DNA of 24,721 nt. Source: Gammaproteobacteria bacterium. Its GTDB lineage: Bacteria; Pseudomonadota; Gammaproteobacteria; Steroidobacterales; Steroidobacteraceae. Below are positions 7,622-22,404 of this stretch, piece by piece (positions within the stretch are counted from its first letter, which is position 1; each line of letters begins with the position of its first letter). Both the position numbers and the translations under genes were made by a program. The stretch lies in assembly GCA_020846815.1 (NCBI GenBank), contig JADLDF010000419.1, forward strand, positions 1 to 24,721, written 5' to 3'. The notes under the pieces are model-generated. The model worked only from the letters and a program-made list of their open reading frames with translations. It did no database searches and was not told where the DNA came from.

Positions 7622-7986
7622 GATGCGAGATGACCCTCGAGTTCGGGCTGCAGGCGCGCCCAGGCATCGGCGAGCAGGCCGCAGTGCTGCGTCGCCTCGC
7701 CGGCCTCGCCGCGGCGCACTGCCGTCTCGATCGCCGCGCACAGGTCGCCGATGCGCTTCGCGCCGATGCTGTAGCTCGCCGACTTCAGCGAGTGAGCCAC
7801 GCCCCCGAGCGTGGCGACGTCGCCCGCGGCGTGCGCAGCATCCTTCGCGGCGAGCTGCTGCGGCGCCTGGTCGCGGTAGGTGCGCAGCAGCTGGGGCAGC
7901 AGCGCGCCCTTGCGCAGGCCGCGCAGCATCGCGATCTGTTCCGGGTCGAGCTCCGGTGCGCCCGCGTCTGGCGTAGAAGTGCTCAT
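7618..7986 (-). CDS. HPt (histidine phosphotransfer) domain protein
   Basis: This 122-residue protein is a four-helix HPt module. The phospho-accepting histidine is His65 in GGVAHSLKSAS, matching the HPt consensus HxLKGxA/S, followed by a Gly-containing turn (IGAKRIGDLC). Its stop overlaps the start of the REC-EAL response regulator, the natural recipient of its phosphate. The N-terminal 15 residues are a low-complexity linker (STSTPDAGAPELD). HPt modules are often the last domain of hybrid histidine kinases, and the DNA just upstream is a truncated FIST gene. The present reading frame may therefore be the surviving tail of a larger sensor kinase, started at an internal ATG, rather than a free HPt protein. 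No kinase is found in the window. Confidence 0.82.
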   Translation of the reverse strand: MSTSTPDAGAPELDPEQIAMLRGLRKGALLPQLLRTYRDQAPQQLAAKDAAHAAGDVATLGGVAHSLKSASYSIGAKRIGDLCAAIETAVRRGEAGEATQHCGLLADAWARLQPELEGHLAS

Positions 7987-8012
7987 GGTGCCGTGGGTGC
8001 GCCGCCCTGGGA

Positions 8013-8267
8013 TCAGGCGCCGCCGATCGCGATGCCGGTGAGATAGCCCTGCGGGGTGATCTCGCCGGCCGTGGTGCAGCCGATGAGATTGACGTCGCCG
8101 AAGCGGCGGTGGAGCGCGGCGGCGAGCGCCGGCAGGTCGAAGTCCGCGGCGCAGTAGAAGACCGCGAGTCCGATGTCCGGCTGCCAGATCGCCTCGTGGA
8201 GCTGCTGCGCGGCCAGTTCGGGGTCGCGGTGCCGGGACGTGCCCTTGCGGATCGACAGCTTCGACAT
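8013..8267 (-). pseudogene. FIST sensory domain protein, N-terminal fragment
   Basis: The frame encodes 84 residues matching the start of FIST_N ligand-sensing proteins: a lead-in with LAVFYCAADFDLPALAAAL, then LIGCTTAGEI, the hallmark of the family, and YLTGIAIGGA. FIST proteins are usually about 370-400 residues with a FIST_C domain. Here translation ends at TGA directly after GGA, where the family would continue with a Ser-rich loop, and no other frame restores the remainder before the HPt gene begins 26 nt later. The ATG at 8267 looks native. FIST proteins are commonly encoded beside signalling proteins, which fits the HPt and REC-EAL genes that follow. As it stands the fold would be incomplete. 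Confidence 0.7.
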
Positions 8268-8424
8268 AATTCCGGTGCCTCGTTCGGCCGTGGCGCGCTG
8301 CCACGGGTCCCCGCGCCACGACGGCGGGGCTCAACCGGATATCGGATTGCGGACGCCGGGCTGTAGCGGTCCGTCCGCGGCCGCGGCGGGAATCGGTGAT
8401 GCGTCACAGGCCGGGCAGGGCATT

Positions 8425-9147: not shown

Positions 9148-11976
9148 TCACCGCGGTGGCGGAGAGCCACACGCGCCGGGCGGGGCGCGCCGGAAGAGGT
9201 CGGCCGCCTGGCCGCGCGAGTCGCACTCGAGCTTGTCGAGGATGTTGCAGAGATGGCGCTTGATGGTGTGCAGGCTCAGCGCAAGATCGCGCGCGATGTG
9301 CTTGTTGCCGTCGCCGGCGGCGACCCGCTCGAGGACCTCGAGCTCGCGCGACGTCAGCCGCTGCAGCAGCGCGACCTGTCGGTCGCGTACGGCGACCGGC
9401 GCGACCCGGGGCTCGCGCGCCGTGCCGCGCCCGGCCGTGGCCACGACCGCGGTCGTGGCGGACGCCGCGGTCGCGGGACGCGGCTGCCACCAGGCGTCCA
9501 GCACGCGTCGCAGCGCCTGCAGCGCTGCGCTGCGCTGCAGCGGCTGCGGCACGACCTCCGACAGCAGCGCGTCGACGTGCCGGCGTGAGTCCAGCAGCAG
9601 GATGCCGTAGGCGCGATGGCGCGCGATCTCGGCGAGCACCGGCTCGAAGGCCTGCCAGGCCGCCGTGCGATCGCCCCGACACGACAGTGCCCAGGCGAGG
9701 CCGACGCGCGGATCGCAGTAGATCGCCGGCATCCGCTGACGGTGGTAGCGCGCGCAGGCGTGGCCGAGCACCTCGATCGCCGCCGTCCAGTCGCCGTCGG
9801 CGAGCGCGGCCTGGCCACGGGCCACCTGCGCGGCGAGCTCGACGAACGGCCACTCCTCGGGGCGCCGTGGCTCGAGCAGCGCCGGCAGGTACTCGCGCCA
9901 GGCGTCGAGCTCGCCCGTGATCCAGTGGAAGCGCGCCGCGGCGTGCCGGTAGGCGCGGCCCCAGGCGGCGCGGTGCCGGGCCACTTCGGGTGCTTCGAGG
10001 CCGCGGATGTGCATGCGCGCGAGCTCGCCGGCCGCGGCCGTGTCGCCGCTGGCGGCGAGCAGCATGCAGCGCAGCTGCCCGATGCGCTCGGCCATGAGCC
10101 GTATGCCGCCGAACCGCTGATAGAGACTCTCGGCCCGTGCGAGCGCCGCCTCGGCACCGGCGCGGTCGCCGTGCCACAGGCGCGTCCAGCCGTCGATCGC
10201 ATGGTGCGCGAGGTGCCAGGGCGCACCGGCCGCGCCGCGGATCGCATCGGCCAGGGTGACGAAGCGCTCGAAGCGCGCCGCCACGCCGGGAATGCCGACC
10301 AGCATGCAGTGCACGCCGCCCGCGGTCAGCGGGCAGACCCGCACCGGATCGCGCTCGACGTTGCGGATGAAGATTTCGAGCTGCTCGACGATGGCCGCGG
10401 TGTCGCCGTCCGGCGCTTCGCACCACGCGCGCTGCAGGCCCAGCGCGGCCCGGCCGCGCGCATCGAGCGGCAGTCGCGCGACCTCTTCGAGCATCGCGCG
10501 CGCCTCTTCCCGCTCGCCGGAGGAAGCGAGCGCGTCGACGAGCTGGAAGCCGGCGCTGATGCGTCGCGGCAGCTGCTCGGCCCGGTCCATGCCGCGCACC
10601 GCGGTGCGCAGGCCTCGCCGCGCGCGTTCCCAGTCCCAGCGCAGCCAGCCGCAGAAGCCGTCGAGATAGGCCGCTTCGGCGCTGCCGGCGCGCACGGCCC
10701 GGGGCAGCTGCTCGAGCCAGCGCTCCACCGTGGTCACGGCGCCCTGGGCGAGCAGCTCGTCGCCGCAGCGCGCGAGCAGGGTGAGCGCCTCGTCCCAGAG
10801 GCCGGCGCGCAGACAGTGCTGGATCGCGCGCGTCGGCTGGCGCTCGGCGCGGGCCGCGGCCGCATGCAGCGCCGGCCCGGCGCCGGGCTCGCGCCGCTCG
10901 AGCTCGGCGAGCAGGAATTCGCGGAACAGGTCGTGATAGCGCAGCACCGGCAGGTACTCGTCGACCGCGGTCACGAACAGGTTGCCGCGCAGCAGCGCGG
11001 ACAGCAGTGCTGCGGCATCGTCCGCGCCCGACACGGCGCGGCAGGTCGCGGGTTCCAGCTCCTCGAGGATCGCGCAGCGCGTGACGAAGCGCTGCAGGTC
11101 CTGCGGCAGCTGCGCGAGGATCTCGCGCGCGAGATAGCCGAACAGGCGTGGGTCGGCGCTGCTGCCCCGCGGCTGTTCGGCCATCTCGGCGTCCTCTGCC
11201 GGTGCGGCGGCCGCGCCTCCGTCCGCGGCCGACTGCAGCAGCATCGACAGACCGACGGCCCAGCCGGCGGAGCGTGCCAGTGCCGCGCTCACCACGGTGG
11301 CATCGGGGCCCGGCGCGCCGCGTGGCGCCTTGGCGCCGGCCAGGGCGAGCGCCTCGTGCGCGTCGAAGCGCAGCATGTCGAGCGCGAACTCGCCGAGCTC
11401 GCCGTGGGCCTGCCAGCGCTCGAGCGGCAGCGGTGGGCGCGTGCGGCTGCCGAGCACCACGGCGACGTGTTCCGGCAGGCGCTCGAGCAGCGACTCCAGC
11501 AGCCGGTACACGCCGGAATCCGTGAGGCGGTGCAGGTCGTCGAGGATCAGCGCCAGCGGCGTCTGCTCGGCCGTACACAGCGCGTTGACCAGCGCCGCGA
11601 CCGCCGCGCGGCTGCGCGACGGATCCGAGTCGACGCCCGCGGCCAGACCGCGCGGGTCGACTTCCCAGGCGAGCTCGAGCTTTGCCACGGCCGTCACCAG
11701 CGCGGCATAGAAGCGGTTCGGGTCGTCATCGTCCGCATCGAGCGCGATCCACAGCACCGTGTGGGAGTCGCGCAGCGCCGCGGCGAGCTGCAGCAGCGCC
11801 GTGGTCTTGCCCGAGCCGCCGGGCGCGACCACGAGCGTCAGCGGATTCGCCGTGACCGAGTCGCGCAGCGCCTGCAGCACGCGGGCGCGCGTCACGGTGT
11901 CGCCGCGTTCGCGCGGGACGCGGAACTTGGTCAGCGGCGCGAGGCCGGCGCGTTCGAGATCGTGGATTGCCGCCAC
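9148..11976 (-). CDS. LuxR-family transcriptional regulator, MalT/LAL type
   Basis: This 942-residue ATP-dependent activator has an N-terminal STAND NTPase. Walker A is PGGSGKTT (residues 52-59) and Walker B LALILDDLH (141-149). A long helical TPR-like sensor region follows (about 400-850), and the protein ends with a LuxR helix-turn-helix (about 874-930: LTSRELEVLERVAAG, then NKHIARDLALSLHTIKRHL). Proteins of this class usually bind an inducer and ATP, oligomerise, and activate nearby genes. The GTG at 11976 is the only plausible start in front of the conserved opening LAPLTKFRVPR. A TACAAT box ends 6 nt before it and there is no ribosome-binding site, so the mRNA may be leaderless. Candidate targets are the cytochrome c gene downstream and the nitrilase-like gene upstream, both on the same strand. 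The inducer cannot be predicted. Confidence 0.9.
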   Translation of the reverse strand: MAAIHDLERAGLAPLTKFRVPRERGDTVTRARVLQALRDSVTANPLTLVVAPGGSGKTTALLQLAAALRDSHTVLWIALDADDDDPNRFYAALVTAVAKLELAWEVDPRGLAAGVDSDPSRSRAAVAALVNALCTAEQTPLALILDDLHRLTDSGVYRLLESLLERLPEHVAVVLGSRTRPPLPLERWQAHGELGEFALDMLRFDAHEALALAGAKAPRGAPGPDATVVSAALARSAGWAVGLSMLLQSAADGGAAAAPAEDAEMAEQPRGSSADPRLFGYLAREILAQLPQDLQRFVTRCAILEELEPATCRAVSGADDAAALLSALLRGNLFVTAVDEYLPVLRYHDLFREFLLAELERREPGAGPALHAAAARAERQPTRAIQHCLRAGLWDEALTLLARCGDELLAQGAVTTVERWLEQLPRAVRAGSAEAAYLDGFCGWLRWDWERARRGLRTAVRGMDRAEQLPRRISAGFQLVDALASSGEREEARAMLEEVARLPLDARGRAALGLQRAWCEAPDGDTAAIVEQLEIFIRNVERDPVRVCPLTAGGVHCMLVGIPGVAARFERFVTLADAIRGAAGAPWHLAHHAIDGWTRLWHGDRAGAEAALARAESLYQRFGGIRLMAERIGQLRCMLLAASGDTAAAGELARMHIRGLEAPEVARHRAAWGRAYRHAAARFHWITGELDAWREYLPALLEPRRPEEWPFVELAAQVARGQAALADGDWTAAIEVLGHACARYHRQRMPAIYCDPRVGLAWALSCRGDRTAAWQAFEPVLAEIARHRAYGILLLDSRRHVDALLSEVVPQPLQRSAALQALRRVLDAWWQPRPATAASATTAVVATAGRGTAREPRVAPVAVRDRQVALLQRLTSRELEVLERVAAGDGNKHIARDLALSLHTIKRHLCNILDKLECDSRGQAADLFRRAPPGACGSPPPR

Positions 11977-11982
11977 CGCGCG

Positions 11983-11988
11983 ATTGTA
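11983..11988 (-). promoter_or_regulatory. -10-like box of the LAL regulator, possibly leaderless
   Basis: TACAAT on the minus strand matches a sigma70 -10 element and lies 6 nt before the GTG start. Transcription would begin at or within the start codon. No good -35 hexamer is visible (the position at 17-nt spacing reads ACGGTC). Confidence 0.35.
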
Positions 11989-12106
11989 GCCAAAGCTGCC
12001 GCACGGACCGTCGTTCGCTGCGCGTGCCGCCGCACGTACGGGCCCGCACGGAAATCCTGGGCTCCGTCTGCGACCGCCCGTCGATCGTCGCCGCGGGCTG
12101 CCGCGT

Positions 12107-13141
12107 TCACTTCCAGCGGCGCTTGTCGGCGAGATAGCGCGCCGAGTCGAAGCCGTCGCTCGGCTGGTAGGCCGAGAACAGGTTCGGCGGATAGGGTTCG
12201 ACGTACTGCGCATAGAGGTCGCGGTACAGCGCTGCGTGCACGTTCGGGATGCGGCGCTTGTCGCGGAACGCGCGGATCGGGATGCGCGCCAGCACCGGGC
12301 CTTCGTTCACGCTGTTGGCCTGGCCGAGCTGCTCGCCGTTGGGGCCGTAGATTGCGCTGCCGCCGGAGCGCACGTCCTCGAACGAGCCCGGGTTGTCGCG
12401 CGAGATCGACTGGTTGACGATCGCGGTGTACATGTTGTTGTAGCGCGCGTTGGCGCGGATGTCGTACTCGTCGAAGCCGCCGGTCGCGGTGCGCAGCATG
12501 ATCTCGCCGCCCTTGAGCGCGAACGCGCGGATGATCTCCGGCTCGAGCTGGGTCGAGGTCGTGCAGAGGTTGCCGACCGGCGTGCGCGTCACCGGCACGA
12601 CCTCGTCGCGGCCGTACTTCTCGACGTATTCGTCGAGCACGTCGTAGATCGTCGTCGTGAACACCTCGAAGCGGCCGAAAAGGCCCTTGATGTTGCGCGC
12701 CTTCCAGTGGCGGCCGACGATCGCGCCGCTCGGGTCGATGATCGTGGTGATCGACAGGATGTGGTTCGGCCAGTCCGGGTCCCTGGCATAGGAGCCGAAC
12801 ACCACGTAGCAGCCGTAGCGCTTGGCCCGCGCGCCGATCGCCTCGGTCTCGGGGCCGGGGATCTCGATCGCCACCTGCAGCAGCTCGGCGCGCTTCCAGC
12901 CGGCGTTGAAGCCGGTGAGCGGAAACTCGTGGAAGAAGACGATGTCCTTCGGCCCGAGCCAGCCGTTGGCCGCGTCGATCAGGCCGAGCATGTGATCGAG
13001 GTTGGCCTTGAGGGAGGCGTCGCGGTTCGAGACGTCGACCGCGCGCACGCGCGACTGCACGACGCAGAGGGAGATCTCGTCCTTGGCGAGCGGGACGCAG
13101 GCATAGGTGCCGTCGGGTCGGACGAGTGGTTCGCTGGACAT
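12107..13141 (-). CDS. Nitrilase-superfamily (carbon-nitrogen hydrolase) protein with atypical nucleophile site
   Basis: This 344-residue protein has the nitrilase alpha-beta-beta-alpha fold pattern. The catalytic Glu is Glu72 in FFHEFPLTGF and the Lys is Lys147 in GRHWKARN. The region that normally holds Cys, as CYDxxxPE, reads LCTTSTQLEPE (192-202). Cys193 lies eight residues before Pro201 rather than the usual six, and the canonical position is occupied by Thr195. The rest of the fold is well kept (RAFALKGGEIML, then GGSAIYGPNGEQLGQA). Either Cys193 is a shifted nucleophile, or this belongs to a nitrilase-related subgroup without the standard triad. I recall related proteins with the same opening (PLVRPDGTY...) that also lack the normal Cys. 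The substrate is unknown; the protein is cytosolic, with no signal peptide. Confidence 0.85.
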   Translation of the reverse strand: MSSEPLVRPDGTYACVPLAKDEISLCVVQSRVRAVDVSNRDASLKANLDHMLGLIDAANGWLGPKDIVFFHEFPLTGFNAGWKRAELLQVAIEIPGPETEAIGARAKRYGCYVVFGSYARDPDWPNHILSITTIIDPSGAIVGRHWKARNIKGLFGRFEVFTTTIYDVLDEYVEKYGRDEVVPVTRTPVGNLCTTSTQLEPEIIRAFALKGGEIMLRTATGGFDEYDIRANARYNNMYTAIVNQSISRDNPGSFEDVRSGGSAIYGPNGEQLGQANSVNEGPVLARIPIRAFRDKRRIPNVHAALYRDLYAQYVEPYPPNLFSAYQPSDGFDSARYLADKRRWK

Positions 13142-13827: not shown

Positions 13828-14160
13828 TCAGGGAGCGAGGTCGGCGTCGGTGAGCAGCCGGCGCTTGCGGAACAGGGACATGAAGAACCGGCGCGCCGCC
13901 TTGCCGCGGGTCAGCCAGGCGACGCGCGCGCCGGCTTTCTGGTCGCGCAGGATGCCTTCGGCCAGGAACGGCGTCACCGTCTCGACACGGTCGGCGAGGA
14001 TGTCGTAGACGCGGCGGGTGCGCTCCCGCTCCCGCGGGGCGTTGCTGCTCACGTCGCGCTTCAGCAGATCGGTGAGCACGATGCCCGGGCTCAGGTAGCA
14101 GACCTTCACCGGACCGTCGCGCGTCTCGGCGAGCAGGGCCTCATTGAAATAGGTGAGCCC
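13828..14160 (-). pseudogene. Short-chain dehydrogenase A, C-terminal fragment
   Basis: The minus-strand frame encodes the last 110 or so residues of an SDR. It starts abruptly at GLTYFNEALLAE, the helix just after the catalytic YxxxK. It goes on through VKVCYLSPGIVLTDLL (the family's PG...T strand and loop) to a basic C-terminus (RRFFMSLFRKRR). The Rossmann motif, catalytic Ser, Tyr and Lys are all missing and there is no start codon near the break. In the plus direction, the DNA immediately past 14160 belongs to a second SDR of the same subfamily on the opposite strand. It is a gene remnant, or one side of an assembly join. Confidence 0.75.
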
Positions 14161-14676
14161 GAGATAGAGACGATGGTGCGCGGCAACGTCATCGGCTCGA
14201 TGAATGCCGCCCAGGTCGCGATCGCCGGCATGCAGCGCCAGGGCGGCGGCAAGCTCTACCTCACGCTCGGCGGCGGTGGCGCTTCCGGCCGCGTGGTTTC
14301 GGGCATGGCCGTCTATTCGACGACCAAGCGCGCGGTGAAGTATTTCGCCGACTCGCTCGTTCAGGAGCGACGCGAGGCCGGCGACGAGTCGATCCTGATC
14401 GGCACGATCAGCCCCGGGGTCAACATCACCGAAGGCATGCTGCGCGAGTTCGCCGCGCCTTCGCCCGAGGAACGGACGAAAGCGCGGCGACAGCTGAACT
14501 TCATCGGCGAGCACGTCGAGACCACGACACCGTGGATCGTCGAGCGTATCCTCGCCGACACCCGGCAGGGCAACGACATCACCTGGCTGACCACGGGTCG
14601 CCTGCTGGGCCGCGGCCTGTCGATGCTCTTCGGCAGCAAGCGCGACATCACTTCCCGCTACCGATTCGAGACCTGA
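14161..14676 (+). pseudogene. Short-chain dehydrogenase B, N-terminally truncated
   Basis: About 171 residues of an SDR remain. The frame opens at EIETMVRGNVIGSMNAAQVA (the N-x-x-G helix at mid-protein). It keeps the serine-region strand, the active-site YSTTK (in MAVYSTTKRAVKYF), the SPG loop (GTISPGVNITEGML) and a full C-terminus. The N-terminal 90 or so residues with the TGxxxGIG cofactor motif are lost. An internal ATG at 14173 exists but no ribosome-binding site serves it. The sequence is a paralogue of SDR A, with matching blocks VETxTPxxxExIL and WLTxGxxxxxxxSxLF. The propeller gene starts 3 nt after its stop, so the two were probably one operon. Confidence 0.78.
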
Positions 14677-14679
14677 ACC

Positions 14680-15633
14680 ATGAGCAGCTTCCAGCCCTGG
14701 ACCCGCGGCGACGTATTCGTCGCCGTCACCGATCTCGACGACCCGCGGGACGACCACGCGGGGCGCGGCCGCATCGTCCAGTACGGTGCCGACTTCGCGA
14801 AAAAGGGCGAGATCGCGCTCGCCGAGACCGGGCACCTGGTCGGCGGCCTGAAGTTCGACCGCGGCGGCGTGCTGTGGGCGTTCGACAGCCAGGACTTCGT
14901 CGTGCTGAACGTGCATCGCGACGGCCGCGTGGTGCGCCGCGGCGAGTTCGGCCCGCGGCCGTTCTCGCACGTCAATTTCATGCGCGACGGCTCGCTGCTG
15001 TTCGGCGAGCACGTCGTCGGTGCGACCATCAAGCCCGAGATCGCGGCGCGCATGCACACCACGATCGCGTTCATGCCCGGCACTTCGCGCTTCGGCGACG
15101 GCCACGTCTGGCGCTACCGGTCCGACGGCACGCTCGTGAAGGAATACGCGACCGCCGTGCACGGCGGCATGGGCGGTTTCCTCGGCGTGACCATGTCGGC
15201 ACTGTCGCCCGACGAGTCGACGCTGGTCTACTGCTCCGAGACCGGGCCGCGGCTGATGCGCTACGACCTGGTCGGCGACGCCCAGCTTCCGGACCTGCAG
15301 TCCTTCGCGCCGCCGTTCCCGCCCGGTCCGCCGCCGATGTTCTTCGGCATGGACTACGGCCCCGACGGCACGCTCTACGTGCTGCGCGGCGCGAGCATCC
15401 ACGTCGTGGATGCGCAGGGGCAGACGACGCGGCAGATTCCCCTCGAGGGCTTCGGCTGGGCGCTGCTCGACGTCGCGGCCGATGGGCGCAGCGCGCTGGT
15501 TGCGAGCTTCTTCTCCGGCGAAGTGGCGCGCATCGATCTGGCGAGCGGCACGAAGCTCGGTAGCCTGCAGACCGGCGCCGTCAAGGCGATCGCCGGCCTG
15601 GTCGAGTACCAGGGCGAGGGCGCCAAGGGCTGA
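14680..15633 (+). CDS. Six-bladed beta-propeller (SMP-30/gluconolactonase-like) protein
   Basis: This 317-residue protein is made of repeated blade-like units ending in G-x-L/V-W or D-G-x-L/V patterns: FDRGGVLWAFD, HVWRYRSDGTLVKEY, LSPDESTLVYCSETG, YGPDGTLYVLRGASIHVV and VAADGRSALVASFFSGEVARI. This repeat rhythm is that of SMP-30/gluconolactonase/NHL-type propellers. The metal ligands of true SMP-30 lactonases cannot be assigned with confidence, so it may be a lactonase or a binding protein. There is no signal peptide, so it should be cytosolic. It lies 3 nt after the stop of SDR B with GAACC before the ATG, so it was probably expressed with that dehydrogenase; a dehydrogenase plus lactonase-like pair would fit stepwise oxidation of a small alcohol or hydroxyketone, which is inference. 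Confidence 0.72.
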   Translation: MSSFQPWTRGDVFVAVTDLDDPRDDHAGRGRIVQYGADFAKKGEIALAETGHLVGGLKFDRGGVLWAFDSQDFVVLNVHRDGRVVRRGEFGPRPFSHVNFMRDGSLLFGEHVVGATIKPEIAARMHTTIAFMPGTSRFGDGHVWRYRSDGTLVKEYATAVHGGMGGFLGVTMSALSPDESTLVYCSETGPRLMRYDLVGDAQLPDLQSFAPPFPPGPPPMFFGMDYGPDGTLYVLRGASIHVVDAQGQTTRQIPLEGFGWALLDVAADGRSALVASFFSGEVARIDLASGTKLGSLQTGAVKAIAGLVEYQGEGAKG

Positions 15634-15720
15634 GCGCGGAGCGCCGCGCCGCGCGCCAGGGAGGGTGCGCCGGTAGTACAGTGCTCCCCCGGCGGCGAGG
15701 TTCGTCCGGAGGAGCATTGC

Positions 15721-16293
15721 ATGGAACCGGCGAGACCGGTATCGCCGCAGACCAGACCGCTGCATGCCTGGGCGCGTCCGGCGATCGCCGCGCGGTTCGA
15801 AGCCGCCGTCGTCGCGCGCGACGGCGAGGCCGGCGCGCATTGCATCCACGAGCTGTGGATGCGCGGCGAGTTCGCGGTCGTGGTCGAGTCGTGGCTGCAG
15901 CGTCTCTGGGCCGACTGCGCTGCGACGGTTCCCGAGTGGCTGCCGATGCAATACATCGACTGGTTGCCGCGCGTCTATGACCTGGCGGCGCGGTTCCGCC
16001 CGGCCGCGCGCGGCCGCCACAACGTCTATCTCGTACTGCTCGATTTCGGCGACCGGCGCGGCGATCCACAGGGTGTCTACGTCGGCATGAGCCATTATGC
16101 TCCCGCGCAGCGCTTCGACCAGCATAAGGCGGGCATCCGCGCCTCCGGCAGTGTGCTCAAGCGCGGCCTCGAGGTGCTGACCGGCCCGGTGCTGCATCTG
16201 CAGCGCATCTCGCGCGCCGAAGCGTCGCGGATCGAGGCCGGCCTCGCGGCGGCGCTCGCGGCTGCGGGCCTGCAGGTGGAAGGTGGGCACTGA
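15721..16293 (+). CDS. GIY-YIG-like domain protein
   Basis: This 190-residue protein has an N-terminal helical region (1-95) of no recognised family. A C-terminal part follows that resembles the GIY-YIG nuclease core: VYLVLLDFGD, then GVYVGMSHYAPAQRFDQHK, with the YVG strand, the Arg (in QRF) and the downstream His (QHK) at the spacing of the GIY-YIG helix. The last third (SRAEASRIEAGLAAAL) could hold the Glu used for metal binding in that fold. The first GIY strand is degenerate (VYLVLL). It could cut DNA or be an inactive relative. Ribosome-binding site CGGAGGAG (15708-15715) sits before the ATG; a TACAGT box (15677-15682) may be its -10. It is a single gene between the propeller and gamma-carbonic anhydrase genes. 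Confidence 0.55.
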   Translation: MEPARPVSPQTRPLHAWARPAIAARFEAAVVARDGEAGAHCIHELWMRGEFAVVVESWLQRLWADCAATVPEWLPMQYIDWLPRVYDLAARFRPAARGRHNVYLVLLDFGDRRGDPQGVYVGMSHYAPAQRFDQHKAGIRASGSVLKRGLEVLTGPVLHLQRISRAEASRIEAGLAAALAAAGLQVEGGH

Positions 16294-16338
16294 GCGCGCG
16301 CATGGCCGGCGCGACCATGGGATTTCGGGGAGGATGAC

Positions 16339-16878
16339 ATGATCTACACCATCGGCGAGCGCCGTGCCGACGTCGCAGCGGGCTGCTACGTCGCGCCGTC
16401 GGCGCAGCTCATCGGCAGCGTGCGGCTCGCGGCCGGTGCCAGCGTTTGGTTCAACGTCGTGATCCGCGGCGACACGGACTGGATCGAGATCGGCGAGGGC
16501 AGCAACATCCAGGACGGCACGGTCATCCACACCGACCCCGGTGTGCCCGTGCACATCGGTGCGAACGTGACGGTCGGTCACATGGCCTTCCTGCACGGCT
16601 GCAGCGTCGGTGACGGCAGCATGATCGCCAACGGCGCGATGGTGCTCGACGGCGCACGCATCGGCCGCCGCTGCCTGATCGCCGCGGGTGCGCTGGTGCC
16701 GCCTGGGAAGCAGATCCCGGACGGCTCGGTCGTCATGGGCGCGCCCGGCAGGATCGTGCGCGAGACGACCGAGCGCGACCTGCAGATGCTGGAGCGCGCC
16801 GCGGCCGCATACCGTTCGCGAATCGCAGATTACGCGACGCAGCTGCGGCCCGATCCGCGTTTCCCGAGCCCGGAGTGA
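16339..16878 (+). CDS. Gamma-class carbonic anhydrase-like hexapeptide-repeat protein
   Basis: This 179-residue left-handed beta-helix protein consists of hexapeptide repeats (GSVRLA, GASVWF, GEGSNI, GANVTV, GHMAFL, GDGSMI, GARIGR). The likely zinc ligands are His in VIHTD and two His in VGHMAFLHGC, the arrangement of YrdA/PaaY/CamH-type gamma-carbonic anhydrases. A C-terminal helix (about 140-179) is typical and promotes trimer formation. It would act as a cytosolic trimer. Many relatives are weak or unproven carbonic anhydrases; PaaY relatives are found near phenylacetate genes and a PaaG-like isomerase lies 6 kb away, but that link is weak. A strong ribosome-binding site (GGGGAGGA) precedes the ATG. 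Confidence 0.88.
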   Translation: MIYTIGERRADVAAGCYVAPSAQLIGSVRLAAGASVWFNVVIRGDTDWIEIGEGSNIQDGTVIHTDPGVPVHIGANVTVGHMAFLHGCSVGDGSMIANGAMVLDGARIGRRCLIAAGALVPPGKQIPDGSVVMGAPGRIVRETTERDLQMLERAAAAYRSRIADYATQLRPDPRFPSPE

Positions 16879-16929
16879 ATGCGCCGCCGGCGCGTCGCGG
16901 CCGCGTGCGGGATCGTCCCCGCGCACCCT

Positions 16930-17357: not shown

Positions 17358-18266
17358 TCAGAGCTCGAGCGTCGTCTCGAAGACCAGCACGGCCTGGCCG
17401 ACGATCCAGACCGCACCGGATGCGCCGCCGTCGGCCGGCTCGAGCTCGACGTCGACCCGGCCGGGGCGGTGCAGCGACTGGCCCTGGGCGCCGCAGAAGC
17501 GCACGCGACCCGCGGCCACCGGCGGCAGCAGGCCGTAGCGCGCCAGGTAGGCGCCGAGCAGGCCGTGTGCATTGCCGCTGACCGGGTCCTCGGGAATGCC
17601 GAGAGCCGGGCAGAACATGCGTGACTCGGTCAGGCAGCCCTCGACCTGCGCGTTCAGTGTGAAGACGAAGTGGCCGGCTGCGCCGAGTTGCGCGGAGAGC
17701 GTGTTCAGCCGGTTGAAGTCCGGCTTCAGGTGCCACAGCTGCTCGGTGCCGCGCACGCCGATCATCAGCCGCGTGCTGCCGCTGCCGACGATCTGGATCG
17801 GGCAGCGCGGATCGAGATCGCCGCTCGACAGCGCCAGCGCGTCGAGCACGGCCAGCCGCTCGCGCTCGCTGATCTCGCGGCCGAGCGGTGGCGTGGGCTG
17901 GCGGATCGCGATACGCCGCTGCGGACCCTGGCCGCGGACGTCGATCTCGACCACGCCGCTCTTCTGCCGCTGACGCAGCCGCGTCGGCGTGCCGTCGCGC
18001 CGCGACAGCACGTAGTGCGCCGCGATGGTCGCATGGCCCACGAAGCTCGCCTCGGTGCGCGGCGTGAAGAAGCGCACGCGCAGGTCGTGGTCGGGCCCGT
18101 CGGCCTTCAGCACGAAGGCCGTGTCGGCGTTGTTCAGCTCGCGGGCGATCGCGAGCATCTCGTCGTCGGCGAGCACGTCGGCGCCGAGCACGACGCCGGC
18201 GGGGTTGCCGGTGAAGCGGCGGTCGGTGAAGGCATCGACCTGGAAGACATGGACGCTGCGGGTCAT
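17358..18266 (-). CDS. PhzF-family isomerase/epimerase-like protein
   Basis: This 302-residue protein belongs to the PhzF/DAPF-like fold. It opens with VHVFQVDAFTDRRFTGNPAGVVL, then has the family's acid-base Glu in NNADTAFVL-type context, FFTPRTEASFVGHATIAAHYVL (first half) and PEDPVSGNAHGLLGAYLA (second half). These are the mirrored active-site elements of the two-domain fold. PhzF itself isomerises a phenazine precursor; most family members, including this one with no phenazine genes nearby, have unknown substrates. Length is typical. It is co-transcribed with the Rieske gene. A TACAAT box at 18300-18305 (minus strand) may be its promoter, and it is divergent from the thiamine operon. Confidence 0.88.
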   Translation of the reverse strand: MTRSVHVFQVDAFTDRRFTGNPAGVVLGADVLADDEMLAIARELNNADTAFVLKADGPDHDLRVRFFTPRTEASFVGHATIAAHYVLSRRDGTPTRLRQRQKSGVVEIDVRGQGPQRRIAIRQPTPPLGREISERERLAVLDALALSSGDLDPRCPIQIVGSGSTRLMIGVRGTEQLWHLKPDFNRLNTLSAQLGAAGHFVFTLNAQVEGCLTESRMFCPALGIPEDPVSGNAHGLLGAYLARYGLLPPVAAGRVRFCGAQGQSLHRPGRVDVELEPADGGASGAVWIVGQAVLVFETTLEL

Positions 18267-18346: not shown

Positions 18347-18374
18347 TTGCAAATCGGCCCCGCCGGCCTAACAT
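18347..18374 (+). promoter_or_regulatory. Sigma70-like promoter of the thiamine operon
   Basis: TTGCAA (18347-18352) and TAACAT (18369-18374) are separated by 16 nt. The expected start of transcription, about 18381-18382, coincides with the 5' base of the riboswitch P1 stem. Two independent signals agreeing makes this promoter more credible than the others listed here. Confidence 0.55.
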
Positions 18375-18381
18375 GTCCGTC

Positions 18382-18471
18382 ACCTTGGGGTGGCCCCGTG
18401 GGGCCTGAGATGCCGGTGTACCGGCGAACCCGTCGAACCTGATCCGGTTAGTACCGGCGTAGGGAGCAGGT
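18382..18471 (+). ncRNA. TPP riboswitch (THI element)
   Basis: All hallmark pieces of the thiamine pyrophosphate aptamer are present in order. GGGGTGGCC is followed by a short stem (GGCCCC/GGGGCC) and the pyrimidine-sensing CTGAGATG. An optional hairpin (CCGGTGTACCGG) comes next, then ACCCGT and GAACCTGATCCGG. The last parts are a stem with TTAGTA and the conserved GCGTAGGGAG. ACCT at 18382-18385 pairs with AGGT at 18468-18471 to close P1. The 3' end overlaps the purine-rich Shine-Dalgarno sequence (GGGAG, 18462-18466) and the start codon follows at 18474. There is therefore no separate expression platform: TPP binding would directly hide the ribosome-binding site. High TPP should turn the operon off at translation. 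Confidence 0.96.
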
Positions 18472-18473
18472 CC

Positions 18474-20654
18474 ATGTCCAGCTTTCACCATTGCCGCGGC
18501 AACGTGCTTGCGGCCGTTTCCGCGATCCCCGTCGTCACAGGCTCCGTGCGAGCCTTCGCCGCGGCTCGTGCAGCGCGCGGCCTGGCGTGCGTTGCACTCC
18601 TGGCCATCGCCGTGCCGGCCGGCGCCGGCGCAGCCACGGCTCCCGGCAGTGGCATGGGCGCCGGCGTGGACGAGCCGCTGCAGGAGGTCATCGTCACCGC
18701 GAGCCTGCGGCGTGACCGGCTGGCCGAGCTGCCGGCGAGCGTCACCGTGCTCGACGCGGCGACGGTGCGCGGCGCCGGCGTGCAGCATCTGCAGGACCTG
18801 CTGCCGCTGGTGCCGAACCTCAACTGGGCCTCGGGCAGCTCACGCCCGCGCTATTTCCAGCTGCGCGGTATCGGCGAGACCGACCAGTGGCAGGGCGCGC
18901 CGAACCCTTCGGTCGGTTTCCTGATCGACGGCATGGATTTCTCCGGCATCGGCATGCCGGCGACACTGTTCGACGTCGAGCAGGTCGAGGTCCTGCGCGG
19001 CCCGCAGGGCACGACCTATGGCGCGAACGCCCTCGCGGGCCTGATCAACGTCGGCACGCGGCGCGCGAGCCGCAAGGATCAGGCGCGGCTGGAGCTCACC
19101 GGTGGCGACTACGGCAGCCGTGGCGCCGGTGCGGTGTTCGGCGGCGCGCTCGGCGAGCACTCGGCAGGAAGACTGGTCGCGCAGCGCTACCGCAGCGACG
19201 GCTTCCGCGAGAACCTCTTCCTCGGCCGCGACGACACCGGCCGTTTCGACGAGACCACGCTGCGCGCGCGGCTCGCGCTTGCACCGTGGGACGGGCTCGA
19301 CGTCGACGTCTCGGCGCTCTGGGTCGACCTCGACAATGGCTACGACGCATTCGCGCTCGACAACTCGCGGCGCACGTACTCGGACCAGCCCGGGCGCGAC
19401 GCGCAGCGCTCGCGCGGCCTGTCGGCGGCGCTCGACTGGCGCGCGACCGAGAACGTGACGCTGCGCAGCGTCAGCGCCGTCACCGAATCCGACATCGTCT
19501 ATTCGTTCGATGGCGACTGGGGCTTCGATCCCGGCTACGACTTTACCCAGCGTTTCCTGCGCCGGCACCGCACGGTCAGCCAGGATCTGCGCCTGATGTC
19601 GGACGCCGCGGCGCGCGCGGCGGGCGGCTTCGCCTGGCTCGGCGGTCTCTATGTGCTCGACGTGCGCGAGACCAACGACCAGCTCGACCTCTATGACGGC
19701 GACGTGTTCCGTGCGCTGCAGAGCCGCTACGACGCGACCAACGTCGCGGCCTACGGGCAGCTCGAGTGGCGGCCGCGCGCGCGCTGGCGCCTGACCGCGG
19801 GCCTGCGCGCCGAGCAGCGTGATGCACGCTACCGCGACAGCGACGGCAGTGACTTCGTACCCCGCGACCGCATGCTCGGCGGGCACCTCGCGGCCGAGTA
19901 CGCGCTGTCCGGCGGCAGCACCGCCTATGTCACGCTGTCGCGCGGCTACAAGGCCGGCGGCTTCAACATCGGGCCGCTGATCCCCGACGATCGCCGGCTG
20001 TTCGACCCGGAGTTCCTGCGCAGTGTCGAGCTCGGCTGGCGGCTGCGCGGCGCCGAGGGTCGTGCCGCGCTCGATGCCGCGCTGTTCTTCATGCGGCGCA
20101 GCGACCTGCAGGTCGGCACCTCGGCACAGCTCGATCCCGGCGATCCGCTGTCGTTCGTCTTCGTGACCGACAATGCCGCCGAGGGCGAGAACTGGGGTGC
20201 GGAGCTCACGGCCTCCTGGCGCGCCACCGAGGCGCTGCGCGTCGGTGCGACGCTCGGCCTGCTGCGCAGCCGCTACCTCGGCTACCGCATCGGTGCGCGC
20301 GATCTCGACGGCCGCGACCAGGCCCATGCCCCGCGCACGCAGTACACGCTGAGCCTGGAGTACCGCGACCCGCGCGGCCCGTATGCGCGCGCCGACCTGC
20401 AGGGCGTCGACGCGTTCTACTTCTCCGAGAGCCACGACCAGCGCTCGCGGCCCTATCGGCTGCTCAATCTGCGCGCCGGCTGGGCGGGCGAGCGCTGGGA
20501 CGCGAGCCTCTGGGTGCGCAACGCGCTCGATGCCGACTGGGCGCAGCGCGGCTTCTTTTTCGGCAACGAGCCGCCGGATTTTCCCGACCGCCTCTACGTG
20601 CAGCCCGGCGATCCGCGCCAGGCCGGCGTGACCGTCACCTTCGATCTGCGCTGA
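18474..20654 (+). CDS. TonB-dependent receptor, probable thiamine transporter
   Basis: This 726-residue protein is an outer-membrane beta-barrel receptor. After a signal region it shows a TonB-box-like EVIVTAS, then a plug domain (about 75-190: LPASVTVLDAATV, RGIGETDQWQG, DVEQVEVLRGPQGTTYGANALAGLINV). A barrel of amphipathic strands with typical blocks follows (SRGYKAGGFN, DPEFLRSVELGW, LLNLRAGWAGERWDASLWVRNALD). The N-terminus is long before its hydrophobic core (about residues 38-52); the riboswitch-embedded ribosome-binding site supports the ATG at 18474, though a later GTG would give a more usual signal peptide. The end, VTVTFDLR, lacks the usual terminal aromatic. Family members carry siderophores, vitamins or glycans; the TPP riboswitch and the downstream genes point to thiamine or a thiamine precursor. 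Confidence 0.93.
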   Translation: MSSFHHCRGNVLAAVSAIPVVTGSVRAFAAARAARGLACVALLAIAVPAGAGAATAPGSGMGAGVDEPLQEVIVTASLRRDRLAELPASVTVLDAATVRGAGVQHLQDLLPLVPNLNWASGSSRPRYFQLRGIGETDQWQGAPNPSVGFLIDGMDFSGIGMPATLFDVEQVEVLRGPQGTTYGANALAGLINVGTRRASRKDQARLELTGGDYGSRGAGAVFGGALGEHSAGRLVAQRYRSDGFRENLFLGRDDTGRFDETTLRARLALAPWDGLDVDVSALWVDLDNGYDAFALDNSRRTYSDQPGRDAQRSRGLSAALDWRATENVTLRSVSAVTESDIVYSFDGDWGFDPGYDFTQRFLRRHRTVSQDLRLMSDAAARAAGGFAWLGGLYVLDVRETNDQLDLYDGDVFRALQSRYDATNVAAYGQLEWRPRARWRLTAGLRAEQRDARYRDSDGSDFVPRDRMLGGHLAAEYALSGGSTAYVTLSRGYKAGGFNIGPLIPDDRRLFDPEFLRSVELGWRLRGAEGRAALDAALFFMRRSDLQVGTSAQLDPGDPLSFVFVTDNAAEGENWGAELTASWRATEALRVGATLGLLRSRYLGYRIGARDLDGRDQAHAPRTQYTLSLEYRDPRGPYARADLQGVDAFYFSESHDQRSRPYRLLNLRAGWAGERWDASLWVRNALDADWAQRGFFFGNEPPDFPDRLYVQPGDPRQAGVTVTFDLR

Positions 20655-20661
20655 GGATCTC

Positions 20662-20910
20662 ATGGACATCGCCGTGGACATCAGTCTCTATCCGCTGGAG
20701 CGCGACTTCGTGCCGCCGATCCAGGACTTCATCGATCGCCTCGGCGCCGATCCGCGCCTCAAGGTCGTGACCAACAGCCTCAGCACGCAACTGACCGGCC
20801 CCTACGACGCGGTCATGACGGCGCTGACACGCGAGCTGCGCCCGAGCTTCGAGCGCGAGGCGCGGGCCGTGTTCGTGCTCAAGGTGCTCGGCCCGCTGCC
20901 GGCGTACTGA
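20662..20910 (+). CDS. YkoF-like thiamine-binding domain protein
   Basis: This 82-residue protein is a single domain of the YkoF/MTH1187 thiamine-binding (ferredoxin-like) fold. Family landmarks are DISLYPLERDFVPPI, FIDRLGADPRLKVVTNSLST, QLTGPYDAVM and a C-terminal VFVLKVLG strand. YkoF of Bacillus binds thiamine and its pyrimidine; it has two such domains, so this is about half-length, as in single-domain homologues that assemble as oligomers. It has no signal peptide, so it should be cytosolic. It begins 7 nt after the receptor's stop with GAGGATC before the ATG, and the permease gene starts 10 nt later. It probably buffers or hands on imported thiamine, or senses it; which of these is not shown. 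Confidence 0.82.
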   Translation: MDIAVDISLYPLERDFVPPIQDFIDRLGADPRLKVVTNSLSTQLTGPYDAVMTALTRELRPSFEREARAVFVLKVLGPLPAY

Positions 20911-20920
20911 CGCCGGCGCA

Positions 20921-21538
20921 ATGTTCGAACGCATCGTCGAGGGTCTGCGCGCGAGCTCCCCGGCCGAGCTCCTCGCCGTGCTCGCCGGCTTGATCTACGG
21001 CGTGCTGGCGGTGCGCCAGGACCGGCGCTGCTGGCTGTTCGGCGGGCTCTCCTCGGCGATCCTCGCCGTGCTCGCCGCAAGGGCGCGCCTGCCGATGCAG
21101 GCGCTGCTGCAGCTCGTCTACGTCGCGATGTCGGTCTACGGCTTCCGCCACTGGGGGCGCGGGGTGCGCGTCGCCGCGGCGGTGACGCCGATGCCGATCG
21201 GCATCTGGCCGCTGCGCGTGCATCTGGCCATCGGTCTCGGCGTCGCGGCCGGCACCTGGCTGCTGGTGCCGGCGGTCGCGGCCTGGAGCGCGGCGGCCTG
21301 GCCCCGGCTCGACACCGCGACCATGCTCGCGAGCCTGTTCGCGACCTGGATGGTCGCGCGGCTGCGGCTCGAGAACTGGCTCTACTGGATCGCGATCGAC
21401 GCCGTGTCGCTGTATCTCTATGCGGCGCAGGGTCTGGCCTTCGTCGCGTTCCTTTATCTGGTCTATCTGCTGATCGCGGTATTCGGCTGGTTCGAGTGGC
21501 GCGCGCGCTGGCGGCGGCAGCGGGCGGCCGGAGCATGA
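20921..21538 (+). CDS. pnuT: PnuC-family transporter, probable thiamine permease PnuT
   Basis: This 205-residue inner-membrane protein has about seven hydrophobic helices and the PnuC-family pattern. Examples are LLAVLAGLIYGVLAVRQDRRCWLFGGLSSAILAV in the first third, LVYVAMSVYGFRHW in the middle and RLRLENWLYWIAIDAVSLYLY plus FLYLVYLLIAVFGWFEWR near the end. PnuC carries nicotinamide riboside; the PnuT branch carries thiamine. The sequence alone does not separate them, but the TPP riboswitch and thiamine genes around it make PnuT the better call. PnuC-type carriers work by facilitated diffusion with metabolic trapping, which fits the kinase gene overlapping its stop (ATGA at 21535-21538). Confidence 0.85.
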   Translation: MFERIVEGLRASSPAELLAVLAGLIYGVLAVRQDRRCWLFGGLSSAILAVLAARARLPMQALLQLVYVAMSVYGFRHWGRGVRVAAAVTPMPIGIWPLRVHLAIGLGVAAGTWLLVPAVAAWSAAAWPRLDTATMLASLFATWMVARLRLENWLYWIAIDAVSLYLYAAQGLAFVAFLYLVYLLIAVFGWFEWRARWRRQRAAGA

Positions 21539-22404
21539 CGCCGGGCAGCGCGATCCCGCCGCAGGCGCTGGCGGCCGTGCCGGGGCTGCAGGACGGCGAG
21601 CCGCCGCTGCGGGTCGAGGCGTTGCCCGGCGGCGTGGTCAACCGCACGTTCCGCATCGCGACGCGCGTCGGCGACTACGTGCTGCGGCTGCATCCCGACG
21701 CGGCCCGCTCGGCCGGGCTCGGCATCGATCGTGCGGCCGAGGTCGAGGCGCAGCGCCTCGCGGCCGCGGCCGGCCTCGCGCCGCGCGTGGTCGCCGTCGC
21801 AGCCGATCACGCCTTCCTGGTGAGCGAGTACGTCGCGGGCCAGCGGGCCGATGCGGCGCGGCTGGCCGCGCCGTCCGGCATGGCACGCTTCGGCGCGACG
21901 CTGGCGCGGCTGCGCGGGCTGGTGCCCGTCGGAGCGTCGCGGGCACTGTCGGCGCAACCTTCGCTGATCGAGCGCACGCGCCGCCTGGTGGCGGCTGCGC
22001 GCGCTGGCGCCGATCCGCGCACGGCCGGCGCGCTCGACCGCGCGTTGCAGGCCGCCGAGGCCGGCTGGCAGGCCGCGGACGGCGGGCGGCGACCCTGCTG
22101 CCTCGTCCACAGCGATCCGAATCCGGACAACGTGCTCTGGGTGCCGGGCGAGGGGCCGCTGCCGCTGCTCGACTGGGAGTACGCCCATCTCGGCGATCCT
22201 CTGCAGGATCCGGCGGTCTGGCTGCAGGCCTCGCCGGCGCTGCGCGGCGCGGAGGCACGGCTGCTGCGCGCCTGCGGGCTCGAGGGCGAGGCGGACATCG
22301 GCATGCTCGCGGGCATGGCGGCGGTCTACGACGCGCTCGGCCGTGCATGGAGCGGTCTTGCGGAAACTGCGGCTGGTATCCCCCCGGGCGGGCGGGCAAA
22401 CTAG
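21535..22404 (+). CDS. Phosphotransferase of the aminoglycoside/choline-kinase fold, probable thiamine kinase (ThiK-like)
   Basis: This 289-residue cytosolic kinase has a Gly-rich N-lobe (LPGGVVNRTFRIA), a Lys-less VLRLHP strand, the Brenner motif LVHSDPNPDNVLW (catalytic Asp plus Asn) and the metal-binding Asp in LLDWEYAHLGDPLQD. This is the APH/ThiK/choline kinase layout. Enzymes of this fold phosphorylate thiamine (ThiK, forming thiamine monophosphate), choline or sugars; the operon context makes thiamine the best substrate. The start overlaps the permease stop, so the two are translationally coupled and the kinase can trap the imported vitamin. Thiamine monophosphate would then need ThiL, which is not in this window. 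It ends near a normal length with a Gly/Pro-rich tail. Confidence 0.82.
   Translation: MTPGSAIPPQALAAVPGLQDGEPPLRVEALPGGVVNRTFRIATRVGDYVLRLHPDAARSAGLGIDRAAEVEAQRLAAAAGLAPRVVAVAADHAFLVSEYVAGQRADAARLAAPSGMARFGATLARLRGLVPVGASRALSAQPSLIERTRRLVAAARAGADPRTAGALDRALQAAEAGWQAADGGRRPCCLVHSDPNPDNVLWVPGEGPLPLLDWEYAHLGDPLQDPAVWLQASPALRGAEARLLRACGLEGEADIGMLAGMAAVYDALGRAWSGLAETAAGIPPGGRAN

Follow-up and report, generated by a model that had tools for sequence, protein, structure and literature searches.

A thiamine pyrophosphate riboswitch unit joining a TonB-dependent receptor, a single-domain YkoF-like protein, a PnuC-family permease and an APH-fold kinase: a probable thiamine import operon of Gammaproteobacteria

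The 24,721-nucleotide contig JADLDF010000419.1 (assembly GCA_020846815.1), from a gammaproteobacterium of the family Steroidobacteraceae and referred to here, at its full length, as the window, carries four same-direction genes downstream of a thiamine pyrophosphate (TPP) riboswitch aptamer. They encode a TonB-dependent receptor, a YkoF-like protein, a PnuC-family permease and an APH-fold kinase, and are packed as tightly as an initial annotation of this DNA had described, with gaps of 7 and 10 nt followed by an ATGA overlap. The set very probably constitutes an operon for the import and trapping of thiamine. Its features, in window coordinates, are the following.

18347..18374, forward strand: candidate sigma-70-type promoter, TTGCAA-N16-TAACAT, 8 of 12 consensus bases
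18376..18484, forward strand: TPP riboswitch aptamer, RF00059 by cmscan (Rfam), full length (1-105)
18459..18470, forward strand: GTAGGGAGCAGG, final strand of the aptamer alignment, which probably also serves the receptor gene as ribosome-binding site
18474..20654, forward strand: TonB-dependent outer-membrane receptor, Pfam plug and barrel
20662..20910, forward strand: single-domain YkoF-like protein of 82 aa, Pfam PF07615, 20.5 bits (gathering cut-off 21)
20921..21538, forward strand: PnuC-family permease, read as PnuT, PF04973, 141.5 bits (cut-off 27.3)
21535..22404, forward strand: APH-fold kinase, read as a ThiK-like thiamine kinase, PF01636, 81.2 bits

The succession of riboswitch and genes that the initial annotation had read from the DNA is borne out by Rfam and Pfam, the YkoF-like match lying slightly below its cut-off. 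The aptamer, which scores 74.5 bits where the gathering score is 54.3 (E 3.1e-13), is the sole match at gathering threshold in a cmscan of the whole window, and the receptor displays both a plug domain (PF07715, 61.2 bits, cut-off 23.9) and a TonB barrel (PF00593, 106.7 bits, cut-off 27); an STN domain is not reported by Pfam, and in-frame GTG codons at 18504 and 18546 offer alternative starts. The promoter that had been claimed at the head of the unit fares less well, the pair at 18347-18374 being weak and a scan with a limit of 9 matching bases out of 12 reporting none; however, a TTGCA/TAnnnT pair lies 5' of the aptamer in 9 of 36 sequences (the window and eight relatives, with L010, L045 and L068 excluded from the count) as opposed to 11 of 3600 single-base shuffles.

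Control of the unit seems to involve the 3' end of the aptamer. The conserved aptamer GGGA precedes an in-frame start codon by 4-13 nt in 33 of 38 relatives and by 8 nt in the window, the exceptions (L023, L057, L065, L076 and L010) displaying distances of 65-84 nt. This proximity suggests that the ribosome-binding site GTAGGGAGCAGG is likely to be the aptamer's own 3' strand; a bound aptamer would mask the receptor start site directly, as the overlap between the two suggests. Such an overlap may be a trait of this lineage, since among 12 leaders from the wider class inspected by eye the start lies near the aptamer in L139 alone. The thiC leaders of nine genomes of class B (defined below) place the start of the longest frame 46-125 nt past the CCTGAT landmark; the corresponding distance for the window receptor is 30 nt. 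Locus L010 (2600-3000), whose receptor start is 66 nt off rather than near, also shows a change in the paired aptamer core from CCTG/TAGG to CGTG/AACG, with one C-G pair having become G-C (by eye), and its genome, G009, carries thiC and thiG as well.

Related loci were collected by use of the 82-aa YkoF-like protein as a query, which yielded 160 homologues; an alignment of 38 rows (the window and 37 homologues) was then scanned against 84,980 species genomes, where it confirmed 101 loci; 80 of these were retained. A survey seeded by ykoF misses units that lack this gene; one of these, a receptor-permease-kinase arrangement, was met in G034. Each of the 80 genomes carries exactly one ykoF at E <= 1e-5, and the loci fall into three classes. 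Class A comprises 40 of the 80 loci, found through ykoF alone, in which a receptor gene adjoins ykoF, within 60 nt in 36 cases; a permease follows in 38 of the 40, the contig ending in L062 and the permease being located on another contig in L058. The adjacent kinase was identified in 33 class A loci by tblastn and in L047, L054 and L080 by Pfam, the last four being two loci whose contigs end (L062 and L070), the split L058, and L048, which was not tested. A pattern search places a TPP core upstream of the unit in 36 of the 40, and inspection by eye adds L010 and L068; in L030 and L078 the contig starts inside the receptor gene. In class B (35 loci) ykoF stands alone, all 35 loci having a PhzF gene to its left and 34 a ferredoxin gene to its right (in L032 the contig ends soon after ykoF), and in class C (5 loci) it stands alone at other sites. 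The gene order of the window, for which a search in related genomes had been proposed, does therefore recur, and the adjacency of receptor and ykoF in half of the loci, with the permease beside them in 38 of 40, is beyond chance.

The same two neighbours flank the operon in 18 of the 40 class A loci (one with the ferredoxin gene inverted), as they do in the window, where they mark the site.

17358..18266, reverse strand: PhzC-PhzF family gene, left neighbour, PF02567, 210.9 bits
22473..22787, forward strand: 2Fe-2S ferredoxin, right neighbour, PF00111, 35.9 bits

The gene content of the 80 genomes, relatives of the window, separates the classes further. In this inventory thiC and thiE were counted over their Pfam cut-offs, and for thiG and thiD an E-value below 1e-40 was required, lesser partial hits of these two being taken as paralogues and left uncounted; thiG thus counts in 30 genomes out of 36 over cut-off (uncounted operon genomes being G005, G008, G014 and G049), and thiD in 29 out of 52, PF08543 including other kinases of that fold. 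The gene thiC is present in 3 of 40 class A genomes (in G015 as a piece at a contig edge), 26 of 35 in class B and none of 5 in class C; thiG in 2, 28 and none, respectively; thiE in 2 (with a weak match of 63 bits in G045), 29 and none; and thiD in 2, 27 and none. At these thresholds 36 of the 40 class A genomes lack all four biosynthesis genes, and 29 of the 35 class B genomes have two or more. The importer genes follow the opposite pattern: a PnuC-family permease over cut-off is present in 40 of 40 class A genomes, in one copy each (G080 as a fragment), in none of 35 in class B and in all five of class C, and a relative of the receptor at E <= 1e-60, among the best 13 candidates scored per genome, is found in 40 of 40, 0 of 35 and 5 of 5. 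Permease matches under the cut-off were noted in the class B genomes G035 and G073. Thiamine pyrophosphokinase (PF04263), the enzyme that we take Tnr3 to be, was found in none of the 80 relatives and matches in 7 of 14 control genomes, while ThiL is over its cut-off in 72 of the 80 and in 37 of the 40 of class A.

A scan of 40 of the 80 genomes for TPP riboswitches detected one in 37. All 20 scanned class A genomes carry it beside the operon, G002 and G009 having a second one before thiC; 13 of 16 in class B carry it, each directly before thiC; and 4 of 4 in class C carry it before a receptor gene. The closest relative of the window, locus L001 in the Steroidobacteraceae metagenome-assembled genome G001, encodes flanking proteins that are 87% identical to those of the window and has the operon; thiC, thiG, thiE and thiD were all not found in it at the thresholds used. 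A midpoint-rooted tree of the flanking proteins (53 rows) places four changes between classes A and B, with A on the deeper branches; within it, the class B locus L042, whose genome has all four biosynthesis genes, falls among class A, and the class A loci L002 (all four genes) and L004 (none) fall among class B. Loss of the importer after a gain of biosynthesis, plus one return, would fit this tree, in which change counts cannot separate gain from loss.

Beyond these relatives, an even sample of 369 Gammaproteobacteria, the class to which G001 belongs, includes 20 genomes with this YkoF (22 matches), and in 19 of the 20 a receptor and a permease lie beside the gene (in L143 with an intervening gene), so that the initial impression of an unusual arrangement does not hold among ykoF-bearing genomes. 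In 17 of these 19 genomes a pattern search shows a TPP core ahead of the receptor, the remaining two contigs beginning inside the receptor gene; tblastn detected an adjacent kinase in 7 of the 19, and Pfam identified one more in L141, encoded on the opposite strand, the rest of the 19 loci not having been tested. The kinase of L141 matches neither the ThiK nor the GntI model. Several loci depart from the common plan: G444 carries a ykoF with neither receptor nor permease beside it (L156, 4304-4564) and has thiC; G226 carries a second ykoF standing alone (L145, 4544-4774), with thiC and the full unit elsewhere; and in G272 two ykoF matches some 0.9 kb apart lie between receptor and permease (L146, 4129-5267). 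In another phylum, a 395-kb replicon of Sulfurovum mangrovi (Campylobacterota; NZ_CP087125.1, L116) carries the same series of genes behind a TPP riboswitch that scores 71.6 bits; after the unit comes another riboswitch (68.7 bits), which precedes thiS and thiazole synthase by some 3 kb, and several frames, including those of the receptor and the permease, are broken as annotated.

These observations can be assembled into a single path. When cellular TPP is low, the aptamer would be open and the ribosome-binding site in its 3' strand free, allowing translation of the receptor and the three downstream genes; once TPP is bound, the strand would be held within the aptamer and translation would stop, as the overlap suggests. 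The receptor would move intact thiamine across the outer membrane at the expense of TonB energy, and the permease, by analogy with PnuT of other bacteria, would pass it through the inner membrane; we infer the assignment of this permease to PnuT from its context, namely the riboswitch and its co-occurrence in relatives. The kinase would convert thiamine to thiamine monophosphate (TMP), thus trapping it, and ThiL, encoded elsewhere, would generate TPP. YkoF, probably cytosolic, could bind the pyrimidine half of thiamine, either holding it for the kinase or serving as a buffer. The step assigned to the kinase follows from the inventory: since no pyrophosphokinase was found, thiamine would have to reach TPP through TMP and ThiL, a route that requires a thiamine kinase, for which the operon kinase is a candidate. 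The protein is not nameable by sequence, and may have a ThiK-like function.

The nature of the cargo is constrained by the same gene counts. ThiE and ThiD are each not found in 38 of the 40 class A genomes, so these cells would hardly benefit from hydroxymethylpyrimidine (HMP) or thiazole, and the likely cargo is intact thiamine or a phosphate of it. The receptor could also take up thiamine in phosphorylated or complexed form (TMP, TPP or another), to be freed in the periplasm before reaching the permease. Uptake through TonB is as a rule reserved for cargo that is large or scarce, which speaks for such a ligand, and thiamine and its phosphates are not separated by the data presented here; however, none of the four operon genes, the only ones considered in this respect, matches a phosphatase family in Pfam, and this possibility is regarded as unlikely, if still worth keeping in sight. 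Import of HMP or of a thiamine breakdown product was tried as an explanation and rejected as quite improbable. It draws on the finding that YkoF of Bacilli binds the HMP moiety and that its operon is described as a putative HMP uptake system (PMC5627462), but without ThiE or ThiD in 38 of 40 operon genomes HMP would hardly be convertible (TenA was not searched for), and ThiL is retained in 37 of the 40. The initial proposal that the organism scavenges thiamine or a precursor is thus upheld in its first part, by an uptake and trapping unit in relatives where synthesis genes are mostly missing, and not in its second.

A profile of 38 sequences of the YkoF-like protein matches the solved YkoF structure 1s7h (E 2.6e-6), mainly over its first domain, the second aligning at 6.1 bits, which is not significant alone; it also matches the UPF0045 protein MJ1052 (E 4.3e-4). 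The tandem two-domain architecture is absent from the window, where the protein consists of one domain, and the 120 homologues listed are 78-93 aa in length. Residues S8, Y10, P11, T42, Q43 and G46 are invariant in 80 of 80 loci, and S41 is present in 79. No signal peptide is apparent by eye and conservation sets in before residue 11, which indicates that the protein is probably cytosolic and not periplasmic. This argues against the ligand-binding step between receptor and permease that had initially been assigned to it, since S8, Y10 and P11 are themselves among the invariant positions. A periplasmic shuttle from receptor to permease would find favour in the location of the gene between the two and in its short distance from the receptor gene; nevertheless, not only the N-terminus but also the persistence of ykoF in 35 genomes that yielded neither receptor nor permease make it highly improbable.

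Class B provides further information, since a site that retains ykoF where the importer was not found, in genomes mostly possessing thiC, thiG, thiE and thiD, renders a role in import alone unlikely. A 2-4 residue insert distinguishes 30 of 35 class B proteins from those of class A (0 of 40), but these keep the invariant residues and may bind the same ligand. Ratios of nonsynonymous to synonymous substitution (dN/dS), obtained by counting, are below 1 in all pairs used (dS 0.15-1.2), with medians of 0.39 for 308 operon pairs and 0.34 for 454 ykoF-only pairs, figures that derive from non-independent pairs and from only 82 codons; orphan ykoF is therefore not visibly decaying. It is possible, with somewhat less than an even chance, that the single-domain YkoF handles thiamine in the cytosol and has a task distinct from import. 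The function of YkoF was itself termed 'currently unclear' in 2016 (PMC5037267).

A number of observations weigh against thiamine import as the function of the unit. The permease exceeds the NCBI cut-off for the nicotinamide riboside transporter PnuC (TIGR01528, 65.2 against 42.45 bits), and database names of relatives include nicotinamide riboside transporter, Fe-transport receptor and choline kinase; uptake of nicotinamide riboside by PnuC and a kinase, with an iron-type receptor there by chance, was nonetheless tried and rejected as scarcely credible, given that a TPP riboswitch precedes the unit and that receptor and permease are present or missing together, being present mostly where thiamine biosynthesis genes are missing. 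Among solved structures, the pesticin receptor is the sole relative of the receptor at E <= 1e-10. That an iron receptor lies there by chance was rejected, since it is present in 40 of 40 class A genomes and 0 of 35 of class B. The window kinase scores 44.1 bits on ThiK (TIGR02721, cut-off 299.45) and 73.2 on GntI (cut-off 357), below both cut-offs; among relatives, ThiK scores are 92 bits for L047, 85 for L038, 78 for L080, 74 for L003 and 40 for L001, and in all five GntI scores higher than ThiK and both cut-offs remain unreached. The leader folded alone is of unremarkable stability (z 0.67), and the structure of lowest energy predicted for it differs from the aptamer.

Also to be placed on this side are the genomes that do not follow the contrast between classes. 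Operon and biosynthesis genes coexist in G002 and G009, with a thiC piece in G015, and six class B genomes (G024, G059, G063, G066, G072 and G073) show, at the thresholds used, no importer and no gene of the biosynthesis set of four, which could reflect either incomplete assemblies or another thiamine source. Assembly completeness is not given for these genomes, and a gene missing from one of them thus means little, the contrast between classes being the evidence. Fisher tests on the class tallies count related genomes as if they were independent; independent A/B pairs number only 3-4, too few for the sign test, which is not significant. In the class sample thiC is present in 7 of the 19 operon genomes, compared to 262 of 350 others (p 8e-4 in a Fisher test, which treats related genomes as independent); G001 and G050 were also in the first set, and all seven lie among the 17 new genomes. 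Outside this lineage, the link between operon and auxotrophy is visible but looser.

Receptors of this kind under TPP control have precedents. A riboswitch-controlled receptor with PnuT is already known and tested in Bacteroidetes, where the OMthi and pnuT-tnr3 genes (BT2390 and BT2396-2397 in Bacteroides thetaiotaomicron) form one operon in most genomes (PMC5613172). Receptor and permease matter there for the use of thiamine when they are deleted together or along with the biosynthesis operon; removing one transporter on its own had no effect, and in RNA-seq the transport operons did not react significantly to thiamine (PMC5613172), two results that also count against the proposed function. 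The window resembles this system in placing a receptor and a PnuC-family permease under a TPP riboswitch, but it carries an APH-fold kinase (with ThiL elsewhere and pyrophosphokinase undetected in relatives, as above) where Bacteroidetes have tnr3, and it has YkoF built in, ykoF being unmentioned in the available text on OMthi (PMC5613172). Another predicted TonB-dependent receptor for vitamin B1, omr1, has a thiamine diphosphate (TDP) riboswitch nearby in two SAR86 and two Flavobacteriales clusters (PMC10881298) and is expressed by Cellvibrionales and Sphingomonadales, its specificity being called unclear (PMC12442306). The first of these accounts lists omr1, for potential B1 transport, as a marker distinct from ykoF, the available part of the second does not mention ykoF, and neither, to the extent available, describes the four-gene unit or orphan ykoF. 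Predicted thiamin receptors beside PnuT are also mentioned in PMC2771747.

The YkoFEDC operon of Bacilli is similar in that YkoF, there a soluble thiamine-binding protein, belongs to a TPP-riboswitch transport operon (PMC5037267); it differs in combining a two-domain YkoF (1s7h, 200 aa) with a transporter of the energy-coupling factor type, as opposed to one domain, a receptor and PnuT. A Variovorax operon with a TPP riboswitch, a TonB-dependent receptor and a permease likewise places a receptor in a TPP-regulated proteobacterial operon (PMC10409787), but its receptor is joined to thiamine biosynthesis genes and none of ykoFEDC is reported there, as far as the available text goes (PMC10409787). 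In the open literature searched, represented by partial texts, no account was found of the four-gene unit with a single-domain YkoF, nor of orphan ykoF.

Elsewhere in the window, the reverse strand encodes a response regulator-PAS-GGDEF-EAL protein (5465-8407) and a large LuxR-type regulator with a STAND-like ATPase (9148-12213; AAA_16 and GerE matches). A 1032-aa open frame on the same strand (13828-16926) has no Pfam match and is probably a shadow frame of GC-rich DNA; opposite to it lie smaller forward frames, one of which matches a short-chain dehydrogenase and another hexapeptide repeats.

The thiamine import and trapping operon proposed here would bring together, in one vitamin pathway, genes that are presently labelled as an Fe-transport receptor, a nicotinamide riboside transporter, a choline kinase and YqgV. 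It also predicts which Gammaproteobacteria rely on the thiamine of their neighbours. Finally, genomes that are paired at one site, carrying the importer without synthesis genes or the reverse, provide a natural experiment on the function of YkoF.

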